From positions 1-64,000 of the forward strand of contig JAPLDH010000079.1 of the NCBI GenBank assembly GCA_026391355.1: a stretch of DNA of 64,000 bases, written 5' to 3'. The notes under the pieces are model-generated. The model was not told the DNA's origin. It did no database searches and saw nothing but the letters and a program-made list of their open reading frames with translations. The position numbers were made by a program, and so were the translations under genes. Position 1 is the first letter of the stretch. Every line of letters starts with the position of its first letter. Origin of the DNA: Bacteroidota bacterium (GTDB taxonomy: Bacteria; Bacteroidota; Bacteroidia; Bacteroidales; FEN-979). Shown here piece by piece: positions 19,399 through 47,713 of this stretch.

Positions 19399-19803
19399 TT
19401 AAAATTTCTTGGATCCAAATTTTGAAGGAGTTTTATCAGCATTGTATTTCGACGGACACTTGAGCAACAGACTTGTGGCCTGAAATTCATCGGCCTTCAT
19501 TGAACCCGTAACCACTACATTCCCTGATTTCTCAAAATCCTGCGGCTTGGTATTATGGTAGATCACCTTCTTCTCAATTCCTTTATCATCGATCAGGAAA
19601 AATGAGAATAGATTGGCATTCTTTTCAGCATTATACTCTATGGGCTTGCTTTTATCAAGCTTACCTATGATGTGAACTATTTTATCCGGGTTTTTTGACG
19701 AATACATAAAGTCGGAATAGGTACCTGAATCCGATAACGTAGTGATCACTACCCCGATGGAGATTATTAGCACAAGAATAATTATGATATGAATTGTTTT
19801 CAT
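19399..19803 (-). CDS. ccmE: Cytochrome c maturation protein CcmE, Cys-type
   Basis: This 134-residue protein has one N-terminal membrane anchor (HIIIILVLIISIGVVITTL) and a periplasmic OB-like beta barrel (VHIIGKLDKSKPIEY, VVVTGSMKADEFQATSLLLK). CcmE holds haem covalently and passes it to CcmF/H for attachment to apocytochrome c. In E. coli the haem-binding residue is a histidine in HxxxY; here the matching site is C116-P-S-K-Y120, the CxxxY form known from some archaea, deltaproteobacteria and other lineages. The ATG overlaps the ccmD-like stop by 4 bases (ATGA). The neighbours ccmB, ccmC and ccmD-like confirm the pathway. Confidence 0.9.
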   Translation of the reverse strand: MKTIHIIIILVLIISIGVVITTLSDSGTYSDFMYSSKNPDKIVHIIGKLDKSKPIEYNAEKNANLFSFFLIDDKGIEKKVIYHNTKPQDFEKSGNVVVTGSMKADEFQATSLLLKCPSKYNADKTPSKFGSKKF

Positions 19804-19940
19804 TCTTTATTGATCTTGTCTTTTATTTTCTTTTCAAGCTTCCTGATCTTTCTGTCGATCGAGAACAGGTAAATATAAATCCCCGTCATAATAACTGTCA
19901 ATACTATAACGACAATTATTATTTTATAATATGGATCCAT
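19800..19940 (-). CDS. Small CcmD-like membrane protein (46 aa)
   Basis: The ATG at 19938-19940 opens a 46-codon frame: MDPYYKIIIVVIVLTVIMTG, then a short loop and a charged helix (RKIRKLEKKIKDKINKE). One membrane segment followed by a basic cytoplasmic tail of this size matches CcmD, which stabilises the CcmC-CcmE haem complex. Position between ccmC and ccmE and a 4-base overlap (ATGA) with ccmE support this strongly. CcmD proteins are too short and variable for sequence alone to decide. Confidence 0.75.
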   Translation of the reverse strand: MDPYYKIIIVVIVLTVIMTGIYIYLFSIDRKIRKLEKKIKDKINKE

Positions 19941-19957
19941 GGTGATATGGTTTATTA

Positions 19958-20006
19958 GTCGTAAGTCGTAAGTCGTAAGTCGTAAGTTATAAGTCGTAAG
20001 TCGTAA
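19958..20006. repeat. Heptanucleotide tandem array, 7 units
   Basis: Seven 7-bp units lie head to tail: GTCGTAA four times, then GTTATAA, then GTCGTAA twice. The minus strand of the last three units encodes the final six residues of CcmC (LTTYDL) and its TAA stop, and the stop exists only because of the variant GTTATAA unit. The same unit in opposite orientation occurs at 33946-34001. Confidence 0.95.
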
Positions 20007-20712
20007 GTTCTATTTCCCGGATTCTTACCCTGATCCTCCAGATCCAGAAACCCAGTAGGACCCAGCCTACCATTGCAGGGTAAAAAACATATCGCATATT
20101 TTGATCCAAATTCATTGGAAGAACGGCATTTTCTTCACCTTTTCCAGCTGGGTGAGCTAACGATTTTTGCATACGAGGTAAAATTATTAGGAATACTATC
20201 AACATGACAAAAGCAAAAATGTTGTACACTGCTGAAACCTTCGCCCTTTTGTCTAGATTCTCGATAGAACCTCTCAGAATAAGGTATGCCAGGTAAATGA
20301 ATATCCCAACAGCAGCGCCATCCAGTTTGGGATCCCTTACCCAAAATGCGCCCCATGTTGATTTTGCCCAGATCATCCCGGTAAGGATACCGAGGATGCC
20401 AAAGAGCAACCCCGTGTTGGCCGCCTCCACGGATCTTGTATCATATTTTGTCCTGAACCCTGACAGATAACGTATACTGAATACAAAAGAAGTAATGAAC
20501 ATAGCAAGCATTGTAAACCACATCCCGACATGATAGAACAGGTTTCTCATGGTATTAAAAAGATTACTACCCATACCACTCATTTCAGGGAGTGGGACAA
20601 AAAAACCATAGATCACGGCATATATCAGCAAAATCCCTGATAAGGCTTTCCACCAGCTTTCCTTGATAAACGTTCGCACATTCATTCCACTTGGATATTT
20701 GTTATTGGTCAT
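19987..20712 (-). CDS. ccmC: Haem exporter / cytochrome c biogenesis protein CcmC
   Basis: This 241-residue inner-membrane protein has about six membrane helices and the CcmC/haem-handling-protein landmarks: H61 in NLFYHVGMWF and H187 in SLAHPAG as likely axial haem ligands, with the tryptophan-rich motif WGAFWVRD at 120-127 between them. It presents haem to CcmE on the outer face of the membrane. The motif is a variant of the usual WGxxWxWD. The last six residues and the stop codon are encoded by a heptamer repeat array. At the other end the ATG (20710-20712) lies in a GTCATTA repeat, with a second out-of-frame ATG 7 bases upstream. Confidence 0.92.
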   Translation of the reverse strand: MTNNKYPSGMNVRTFIKESWWKALSGILLIYAVIYGFFVPLPEMSGMGSNLFNTMRNLFYHVGMWFTMLAMFITSFVFSIRYLSGFRTKYDTRSVEAANTGLLFGILGILTGMIWAKSTWGAFWVRDPKLDGAAVGIFIYLAYLILRGSIENLDKRAKVSAVYNIFAFVMLIVFLIILPRMQKSLAHPAGKGEENAVLPMNLDQNMRYVFYPAMVGWVLLGFWIWRIRVRIREIELTTYDL

Positions 20713-20778
20713 TAGTCATTAGGAAAAGAGGCAATAGGCAATAGGCAGTAGGCAACAGGCATTAGGCAATAGGCAAAA
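20708..20778. repeat. Heptanucleotide tandem arrays upstream of ccmC
   Basis: Two GTCATTA units (20708-20721) hold the ccmC start codon on the minus strand. After eight bases come seven units of the form GGCAATA, GGCAGTA, GGCAACA, GGCATTA or GGCAAAA (20730-20778). The same GGCAATA/GGCATTA units recur at 47642-47662. Confidence 0.93.
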
Positions 20779-20823
20779 GTAATTATTGATCCCTTCATTC
20801 TGAATTCCTGCATTGTTCCTGTT

Positions 20824-21483
20824 TCAATCGGTCCAAATGTACGGAAATAACAAATACGCCAGGATGACCACGGTCAGGTTGATCATCAACAGGATGATGA
20901 TAAAGCTGTAATTGCCTGTCCATTGAATTTCTGTAAGGGCGCTTTTTGACACCTTCATAAGGGTAGCCAGTAAAGGCAATATGATTGGAAAACTCAGAAT
21001 GGCCATCAGTGAAAAATTGTGACTTGCTCTTGAAGCAATAGCAGAAACCATAGTAAGAACAGAAGCAAGACCCAGGCTGCCCAGGAATAAGTTTACCAGG
21101 AATAACGTCATATTCATGACCAGGTTTCCCATCAACAGTAGAAAGAACAGGAATGAGAGTCCTGAAAGAATGGTCATGAGCAGGAGATTGTAAAATACTT
21201 TTGAGAGCAGAATTGCCTGGGGGCTTGCTATGGTATAATAATAAAGATGTCGTGCCGGGCTTTCCTGGATAAAACTTTTGGATATTCCATTAACAGCTAC
21301 AAAAAGAAGAATGATCCAGAAAAGTGAATTCCAGGTTTCAACGCTGATGACACTATCGAACGCAAGATAGGTTACAAAAATCGTGGATACAAGGTATAGT
21401 AAAATACCATTGATCACATATTTCTGTTTTAGTTCGAGCCGGATCTCTTTCCCTGCAAGGTATTTTATTTCCTTCAACAGCAT
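20824..21483 (-). CDS. ccmB: Haem exporter protein CcmB
   Basis: This 219-residue protein has six predicted membrane helices and the CcmB pattern: a charged N-terminus (LLKEIKYLAGKEIRLELKQK), FIQESPARHLYYYTIASPQA in the first loops, and glycine/serine-rich helices. CcmB is the permease half of the CcmAB ABC complex that releases holo-CcmE from CcmC. The ATPase CcmA is not in this window and must be encoded elsewhere. ccmC follows after 111 bases that are mostly heptamer repeats. It starts 15 bases after the stop of a T9SS cargo gene, and no independent promoter was found. Confidence 0.88.
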   Translation of the reverse strand: MLLKEIKYLAGKEIRLELKQKYVINGILLYLVSTIFVTYLAFDSVISVETWNSLFWIILLFVAVNGISKSFIQESPARHLYYYTIASPQAILLSKVFYNLLLMTILSGLSFLFFLLLMGNLVMNMTLFLVNLFLGSLGLASVLTMVSAIASRASHNFSLMAILSFPIILPLLATLMKVSKSALTEIQWTGNYSFIIILLMINLTVVILAYLLFPYIWTD

Positions 21484-32565: not shown

Positions 32566-33936
32566 ATGTCTTTTCAGAAACCATCCATCCCAAAAGGCAC
32601 CCGTGATTTCTCCCCGATTGAAATGGTCAGGAGAAATTATATTTTTGATACCATACGGGAAGTTTTTGAGCTGTACGGGTATCAACCCATTGAAACCCCT
32701 GCTATGGAGAACCTGTCCACCCTCCTGGGGAAATATGGGGAAGAAGGCGATAAACTGCTTTTTAAAATCCTGAACTCAGGGGATTTCCTTGATAAAAGCA
32801 ATAATTCAGGTGCACTTTCCACGAATTTCAGGGAACTGTTGCCTCTCATTACTGAAAAAGGCTTGCGATATGACCTGACGGTTCCTTTCGCAAGATTCGT
32901 TGTACAGAACAAAAATGATCTTATTTTCCCATTCAAAAGATACCAGATCCAGCCGGTGTGGCGCGCTGACCGTCCGCAAAAAGGTCGTTACAGGGAGTTC
33001 TTCCAGTGCGACGTCGATGTGATCGGTTCCGACTCACTTCTTAACGAGGTTGAACTGATCCAGATCGTCGAAACGGTTTTTCAAAACCTGCGCATAGGGG
33101 TTATCGTCAAGATCAATAACCGGAAGATCCTTGCTGCCATTGCGGAATTTATCGGCGAACCGGATAAACTCACCGACTTTACTGTAACCATTGATAAAAT
33201 TGAAAAAATCGGGCTGGATGAGGCTTGCAATGAGCTGAGACAAAGAGGTTTCAGCGAATCCTCCATCGAGAAATCCAAACCCTTTCTGAATTTTGCTTCC
33301 GAAAAGGACTTTGAAACCAGTTTCCCGTTCTTTTATTCAAAGCTGAATCATCTGGAAAAAGGGGTCACAGGTCTTGCTGAAATTAAGAAGCTCTTTACCT
33401 ATTTCAAGTCGGTTTTAAAAGATATGGAAATTCATTTTGACATATCGCTGGCCCGTGGGCTCAACTACTATACCGGCGCGATCATCGAGGTGAAATCAAA
33501 AGATGTGCAGATCGGAAGTATATGTGGTGGAGGACGATATGACGATCTGACCGGCATATTTGGGTTGCCGGGAGTTTCAGGGGTGGGAATTTCCTTCGGG
33601 GCAGACCGAATCTATGATGTTATGAATGAGCTGTCACTTTTCCCGACCGGCCTGCTGTCAACCACAAAAGTACTTTTTACAAATTTCGGTAACGAGGAAG
33701 AAAATTATTGTCTTTCCCTCTTGTCAGCGTTGAGAAACAAAGGGATCCATGCCGAGATCTACCCCGATCATTCAAAACTGAAAAAACAAATGGAGTATGC
33801 CAATAAGAAGAATATTCCGTATGTGGTTCTTGTTGGAAAGGATGAGATGGTAAAAGGGCATCTCACCGTTAAAAACATGCTGACCGGTGAACAGTTTGTC
33901 ATGAATGAAGAGGACCTCATCACCTTTCTAAGCTAA
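32566..33936 (+). CDS. hisS: Histidyl-tRNA synthetase
   Basis: This 456-residue class II synthetase charges tRNA-His. It has KPSIPKGTRDFSPIEMVRRN at the start (motif 1 region begins here), motif 2 FKRYQIQPVWRADRPQKGRY, the histidine-specific ARGLNYYTGAIIEV and GSICGGGRYDDL segments, motif 3 GVGISFGADRI, and a C-terminal anticodon-binding domain (KVLFTNFGNEEENYCLSLL). Length is in the upper bacterial range. It has its own promoter behind a 19-bp inverted repeat and is followed by a heptamer repeat array. Assignment is firm. Confidence 0.96.
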   Translation: MSFQKPSIPKGTRDFSPIEMVRRNYIFDTIREVFELYGYQPIETPAMENLSTLLGKYGEEGDKLLFKILNSGDFLDKSNNSGALSTNFRELLPLITEKGLRYDLTVPFARFVVQNKNDLIFPFKRYQIQPVWRADRPQKGRYREFFQCDVDVIGSDSLLNEVELIQIVETVFQNLRIGVIVKINNRKILAAIAEFIGEPDKLTDFTVTIDKIEKIGLDEACNELRQRGFSESSIEKSKPFLNFASEKDFETSFPFFYSKLNHLEKGVTGLAEIKKLFTYFKSVLKDMEIHFDISLARGLNYYTGAIIEVKSKDVQIGSICGGGRYDDLTGIFGLPGVSGVGISFGADRIYDVMNELSLFPTGLLSTTKVLFTNFGNEEENYCLSLLSALRNKGIHAEIYPDHSKLKKQMEYANKKNIPYVVLVGKDEMVKGHLTVKNMLTGEQFVMNEEDLITFLS

Positions 33937-33945
33937 ATACTAACA

Positions 33946-34001
33946 ACTTACGACTTATAACTTATAACTTACGACTTACGACTTATAACTTACGACTTAT
34001 A
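33946..34001. repeat. Heptanucleotide tandem array, 8 units
   Basis: Eight 7-bp units alternate between ACTTACG and ACTTATA, starting 10 bases after the hisS stop and ending about 30 bases before the lyase gene. The units are the reverse complement of those at 19958-20006 (CGTAAGT/TATAAGT), so the two arrays belong to one family in opposite orientation. Confidence 0.95.
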
Positions 34002-34031
34002 ACTAAAAATCAATAATTCAATAATTTCCAT

Positions 34032-47619: not shown

Positions 47620-47710
47620 GTCATTGGTCATATGCAAATAAGGCATTAGGCAATAGGCAATAGATAGTCAGACATTTTACCATTTTGCATTTTGAATTTT
47701 GCATTTTGAA
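47620..47710. repeat. Heptamer array and 14-bp tandem repeat
   Basis: GGCATTA, GGCAATA and GGCAATA (47642-47662) follow degenerate GTCATT-type units from 47620. Two perfect 14-bp copies of TTTTGCATTTTGAA lie at 47683-47710. The cluster fills most of the gap between the SDR gene and the GNAT-like gene, and its last copy ends 4 bases from the GNAT-like stop codon. Confidence 0.9.
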
Positions 47711-47713
47711 TGC

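Follow-up and report, generated by a model that had tools for sequence, protein, structure and literature searches.

A dispersed heptamer array spells the last residues and the stop codon of ccmC in a Bacteroidales genome

Introduction

Bacterial heptamer arrays have been noted for decades, and we know of no accepted explanation for the length of their units or for the way these units spread. Where repeats overlap coding sequence, an obvious comparison is with SSR contingency loci, which are known in Haemophilus, Neisseria and Helicobacter.

The closest described systems are dispersed heptamers. TAACTGA direct repeats occur in Beggiatoaceae, Cyanobacteria and a few Bacteroidetes (MacGregor 2015, PMC4679880). 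Their distribution is patchy, with 7-nt indels between two Cyanothece strains, and in the BOGUAY genome most of them share one orientation and sit immediately 5′ of a start codon. Some run across stop codons or code for protein C-termini, such as the end of MurG (PMC4679880), so that dispersed heptamers overlapping stop codons are already known. The GGGAATC and GGGGA(T/C)T heptamers of Xanthomonas and Nostoc are genome-wide and intergenic, contain degenerate positions and vary extensively in length between close relatives (PMC4692102). Heptamers also make up the cyanobacterial STRR (short tandemly repeated repetitive) sequences, and are in excess among long simple sequence repeats (SSR; Mrazek 2007, as cited in PMC4679880 and PMC4692102). 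A polymerase-contact length has been proposed in connection with periods of 7–8 bp (as cited in the same two papers).

Here, we describe a heptamer array at the 3′ end of ccmC in a Bacteroidales bacterium. The window is the whole 64,000-nt stretch analysed (positions 1 to 64,000 of contig JAPLDH010000079.1), and the genome to which it belongs, hereafter G000, comprises 4.83 Mb in 81 contigs. A literature search on the exact repeats found nothing relevant.

The array at the ccmC 3′ end

On the minus strand, the gene order is ccmB, ccmC, a 46-aa CcmD-like ORF and ccmE. The ccmC product is identified as CcmC by Pfam Cytochrom_C_asm (PF01578, E 2.1e-18). The features of this region are as follows.

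19399 to 19803, minus strand: ccmE, 134 aa (Pfam CcmE, E 5.9e-12)
19800 to 19940, minus strand: putative CcmD-like ORF downstream of ccmC, 46 aa, one membrane helix, MDPYYKIIIVVIVLTVIMTG...
19957 to 20008, minus strand: heptamer array, (ACTTACG)2 ACTTATA (ACTTACG)4 ACT (TRF and unit list)
19986 to 19992, minus strand: variant unit TTATAAC, source of the ccmC TAA at 19987-19989 (unit list)
19987 to 20712, minus strand: ccmC, longest ORF, 241 aa, with LTTYDL and the stop encoded by the array (ORF, Pfam)
20685 to 20712, minus strand: first nine codons of ccmC, MTNNKYPSG, in part from an AATGACC-type heptamer array
20696 to 20722: ATTAGTC run on the 5′ side of ccmC, adjoining the AGGCAAT-family array
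20726 to 20779, no strand assigned: AGGCAAT-family heptamer array between ccmB and ccmC
20824 to 21483, minus strand: ccmB, 219 aa (Pfam CcmB, E 1e-6)

The array at 19957-20008 has a period of 7, 7.4 copies and 91% matches (TRF). The ccmC ORF closes with ...GAA CTT ACG ACT TAC GAC TTA TAA, that is, E-LTTYDL and stop, and because these final codons read as array units, the six residues and the stop are array-derived. A heptamer array has overrun the end of ccmC, so that the gene's final six codons and its stop are now repeat sequence. A preliminary description of this DNA had claimed that the last six residues are array-encoded, that the unit is open in every frame, and that the TAA comes from the variant TTATAAC unit alone. 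All three points were borne out: LTTYDL corresponds to array units on the minus strand, the pure ACTTACG unit is free of stops in all frames (cycling through L-R-L-T-T-Y-D), and the unit list and ORF end agree on the source of the TAA.

Repeats also lie at the other end of the gene. The ATG at 20712 sits within the AATGACC-type array, and homologues suggest that the real ccmC start is the ATG at 20685.

Heptamer and octamer arrays across the genome

In a 1.18-Mb sample of G000 (874 called genes, 85% coding, simple gene caller), partly picked around known arrays, the period spectrum comprised 83 arrays of period 7 and 43 of period 8, at most three for each of periods 3–6, 9–11 and 13, and secondary peaks at 14, 15, 16, 21, 23, 24 and 28. 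Among the short periods, 8 is the only one apart from 7 with a clear excess; arrays with mixed sums (15 and 23) are also present. The arrays are overwhelmingly intergenic (78 of 83 for period 7, also counted as 108 of 119, and 38 of 43 for period 8), in a sample that is 85% coding. Further, 76 kb of non-coding DNA held 25 period-7 arrays against 0.2 in a first-order Markov null, while a lenient count over 579 kb of contiguous contigs gave 32 against none in a Markov null. Extrapolation from these 32 puts the number of period-7 arrays in G000 at roughly 270.

ACTTAYR is the largest unit family (113 three-unit matches over many contigs, against 0 for the reversed control); others are AATAGGC, AAAATGC, AATGACC, AAACTGG and ACGCGTC. 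Some arrays change in phase from one family into another (L098:11356-11426, L066:2081-2125). Among 148 ACTTA-type units scored in the sample, 84 were ACTTACG, 25 ACTTATG, 20 ACTTACA and 14 ACTTATA, which makes the stop-bearing unit an ordinary member of its family. Variation within ACTTAYR centres on the CG dinucleotide (to ATG, ACA and ATA), as if C had mutated to T on one strand or the other. A common 7-base skeleton across the unit families, CNANTTN, was considered and rejected, because its family-level score was no better than that of shuffled units (4.18 vs 4.19 bits).

Contact between arrays and gene ends is at the level of chance. Although 25 stop codons in the sample lie within or touch arrays, and 28 of 874 genes have their stop inside one, 21 of 102 spacer-assigned arrays touch a stop against 20 ± 3.7 under random placement within the spacer. 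Stop codons in the G000 sample are therefore not enriched in arrays above random placement. Starts are touched by 8 of the 102, against 15 ± 3.4 expected.

With head-to-tail 7-bp units well above chance, at many unlinked and mostly intergenic loci, and with largely species-specific unit sequences, the G000 arrays belong with dispersed heptamers of the STRR and long SSR kind. Like TAACTGA repeats, the G000 arrays are dispersed, mostly intergenic and sometimes placed across stop codons; unlike them, they comprise several unit families and the ccmC end recurs across species. No TAACTGA×2 match was present in the 1.18 Mb, and the placement typical of TAACTGA, upstream of starts in one orientation, was not observed, given the 8 arrays touching starts where 15 were expected and orientations to genes of 17:13. 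The G000 arrays share with the Xanthomonas and Nostoc heptamers their genome-wide, intergenic distribution and degenerate units, yet ACTTACG and its sister families lack the G runs of those G-rich, quadruplex-forming repeats. As in cyanobacterial STRR, the units are heptanucleotides, dispersed and lineage-specific. The differences are the Bacteroidales host, the presence of octamers and the in-phase change of family inside single arrays.

The ccmC end and unit families in relatives

Named relatives matched by CcmC are Bacteroidales MAGs. Using one detector and one threshold throughout, we found that the 35 family relatives, not counting G000, included 13 in which the ccmC stop falls within a period-7/8 array; for other nearby genes of the same regions, the figure was 15 of 423 (Fisher 5e-9). 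When the comparison was limited to strong arrays, it was 8 of 35 vs 7 of 423 (2e-6), and among ccmC genes of other Bacteroidota the count was 0 of 75. The ccmC stop is a hotspot for period-7/8 arrays in this family. Part of this signal could be phylogenetic inheritance, because all four genomes of genus g4 with a readable 3′ end carry the array and are not independent cases, and the weaker cases (scores 12–18) may reflect the codon composition of the tail alone.

Both tails and units differ between species, and LTTYDL was absent from every relative examined. In genus g4, each CcmC tail comes from its own heptamer: GIRHEA from GGCATGA/GGCATAA (G011), GMRNEA from GGAATGA (G015), GIRD from GGGATTA (G026) and RMKNEE from AATGAAG (G019). 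Units are alike inside each genome but not from one genome to the next, which points to concerted turnover. In genus g8, the spacer carries an ATCGTAA array with approximate unit numbers of 2 in G029, 4 in G020 and 7 in G031, and CcmC length is constant. The ccmC-ccmD spacer unit is often one that is common in its own genome, as with ACTTACG in G000, ATTGGTC in G028 and ACATCGT in G012. The same-genus relative G001, a different species, has no array at ccmC, and its CcmC ends ...KIKIESRENGIK followed directly by the stop; in G001 and in genus g3, which also lacks the array, the spacer is 1–6 bp. Comparison of these sequences supports a change of CcmC tails between species by array turnover.

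In all 31 genomes compared, the CcmC tail runs 14–22 residues past the conserved core. The C-terminus of E. coli CcmC forms a short helix on the cytoplasmic face and contacts CcmD (PMC10457321), a position in which a tail of fixed length and variable sequence is plausible. The conserved tail LKIEN and its stop, written TTG AAA ATT GAA AAT TGA, are nearly a heptamer repeat, and this coding sequence may itself seed arrays.

Three-unit matches were counted over 61 genomes. ACATCGT gave 545 in G012 and 10 in G024, a number that no other searched genome exceeded, AATGACC gave 124 in G028, 60 in G000 and 24 in G033, and AATAGGC gave 72 in G028. AAATCGT was common to many family members, with its highest count in G036 (330). 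Unit families are largely species-specific, and the dominant unit tends to differ by species. Tandem repeats in the family of G000 are almost only of period 7/8, at lower density than in G000 itself, and limited sampling of the order's other families mostly turned up no such arrays. ACTTAYR, with 113 matches in G000, had 15 in G038, 3 in G006 and 1 in G015; G038 belongs to another family of the order, and the absence of this unit from nearly all closer relatives would fit convergence or transfer.

Unit changes and the contingency-locus question

In simulation, when unit number changes, only the two units before ACTTATA affect CcmC. Adding one to three units there gives 7 or 13 further residues or a CcmD-like fusion frame, with one unit adding 13 residues and two placing ccmC in frame with the CcmD-like ORF, while loss of one unit produces a 301-aa CcmC-CcmD-like fusion. 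Conversion of ACTTATA to ACTTACG lets the frame run to a stop 36 bases beyond the array, giving 262 aa. Gains and losses in the four-unit run after ACTTATA leave CcmC unchanged, and this, the longest pure run of the array, sits after the stop, where changes are silent. Tail switching is mechanically possible, yet most of the array is silent. Consequently, the earlier proposal that loss, conversion or a change in number of units alters the protein end holds for conversion and for the two units before ACTTATA, and fails for the four units after it.

The further suggestion that the array behaves much like a contingency locus found no such support. As in SSR contingency loci, the repeat extends into coding sequence, where a change in the number of units could shift the frame; it differs in lying at the very 3′ end of a housekeeping gene and in showing no sign of selection for switching. 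The changes affect only the tail or open a fusion frame, tail length is kept, and the unit that carries the stop is frequent in its family. The ccmC array shows no sign of being a phase switch. As to position, array-stop contact across the G000 sample is at the random level, but the ccmC stop recurs in arrays in 13 of 35 relatives. Overlap of a repeat with a stop codon need not mean phase variation. In ccmC, repeats rewrite the protein end from species to species with no sign that they act as contingency loci.

Origin and turnover of the arrays

The ccmC array is probably one of many dispersed 7-bp (and some 8-bp) arrays that grow and turn over in the intergenic DNA of this Bacteroidales lineage, and no phase switch. 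Units would duplicate and disappear, probably by active slippage during replication or by unequal exchange. The sequences show that mutated units displace adjacent ones, and that each genome has come to have a few common unit families. Under purifying selection, arrays would survive chiefly where they are harmless, outside genes and at gene edges. In G000, an ACTTACG-family array would have overrun the last codons of ccmC, LTTYDL replacing an ancestral KxKIEN-like tail, and the common ACTTATA variant would happen to supply the stop. The short cytoplasmic tail of CcmC seems to tolerate such rewriting, and this tolerance, together with the near-heptamer coding sequence, probably makes the ccmC end a hotspot. 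Some copying between loci, or shared selection, would be required alongside slippage, because local slippage alone does not account for one family at dozens of unlinked loci in a single genome.

Other explanations were weighed against this one. Selected heptamers in the ccmC-ccmD spacer might be sites for a protein that binds RNA or DNA, or might influence how the mRNA is processed, with the stop overlap incidental. Arrays do recur at this junction in the 13 relatives, and translational regulation has been proposed for TAACTGA heptamers upstream of starts (MacGregor 2015, PMC4679880). A regulatory role is nonetheless unlikely, since units differ between relatives and share no 7-base skeleton beyond that of shuffled units, orientation to genes shows no preference, contact with start codons falls under expectation, and G001 and genus g3 manage without an array.

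An adaptive contingency locus, in which changes in unit number switch CcmC tail length or fuse CcmC to the CcmD-like protein, is very unlikely. CcmC is a housekeeping heme-handling protein, neither a surface nor an antigenic one, and the genome-wide array-stop contact is at random level. Merely two units precede the variant unit, tail length stays within its narrow range in 31 of 31 genomes, and several relatives have a stop within the repeat unit itself, which limits extension. Simulated changes before ACTTATA do extend the tail or open the 301-aa fusion, and the contact of the CcmC C-terminal helix with CcmD in E. coli means that tail changes might matter (PMC10457321). If the array had come in with a mobile element, or if a larger repeat had been copied, one unit family at dozens of unlinked loci would be accounted for. 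Such an origin is extremely unlikely: no shared flanking sequence was found around 34 ACTTAYR arrays in G000, which disfavours a flanking mobile element, and ACTTAYR is near absent in same-family relatives, including the one of the same genus.

Returning to turnover of dispersed arrays, we speculate, with considerable doubt, that this family has an active process that copies and homogenises bare 7–8 bp units between unlinked sites, free of any element or shared flanks. Each species would have its own dominant heptamer, and heptamer-like gene ends, ccmC above all, would be recurrent targets. If so, a conserved heme-handling protein has had its C-terminus rewritten repeatedly and in concert. Two features deserve to be followed, the ccmC hotspot and the species-specific units: the family comprises dozens of species, almost all of its tandem arrays are of 7 or 8 bp, its units are largely species-specific and one gene end is repeatedly struck, which makes it a natural comparative system.

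Other arrays

Two further arrays in the window, neither assigned a strand, belong to the families described above or adjoin them.

33933 to 34017: second ACTTACG/ACTTATA-family array, beginning at the stop of a gene whose end lies at 33936
47638 to 47711: AGGCAAT array and, after it in the same spacer, a CATTTTG array

Elsewhere in G000, gene ends written by arrays occur, for example, at L097:6009-6827, L071:18658-19914 and L066:2101-3192. Partly palindromic heptamers, ACGCGTT/ACGCGTC, lie near gene ends at 1158-1183 of the window, L058:18442-18468 and L077:3867-3894, and this family is present in the G014 and G030 samples too.
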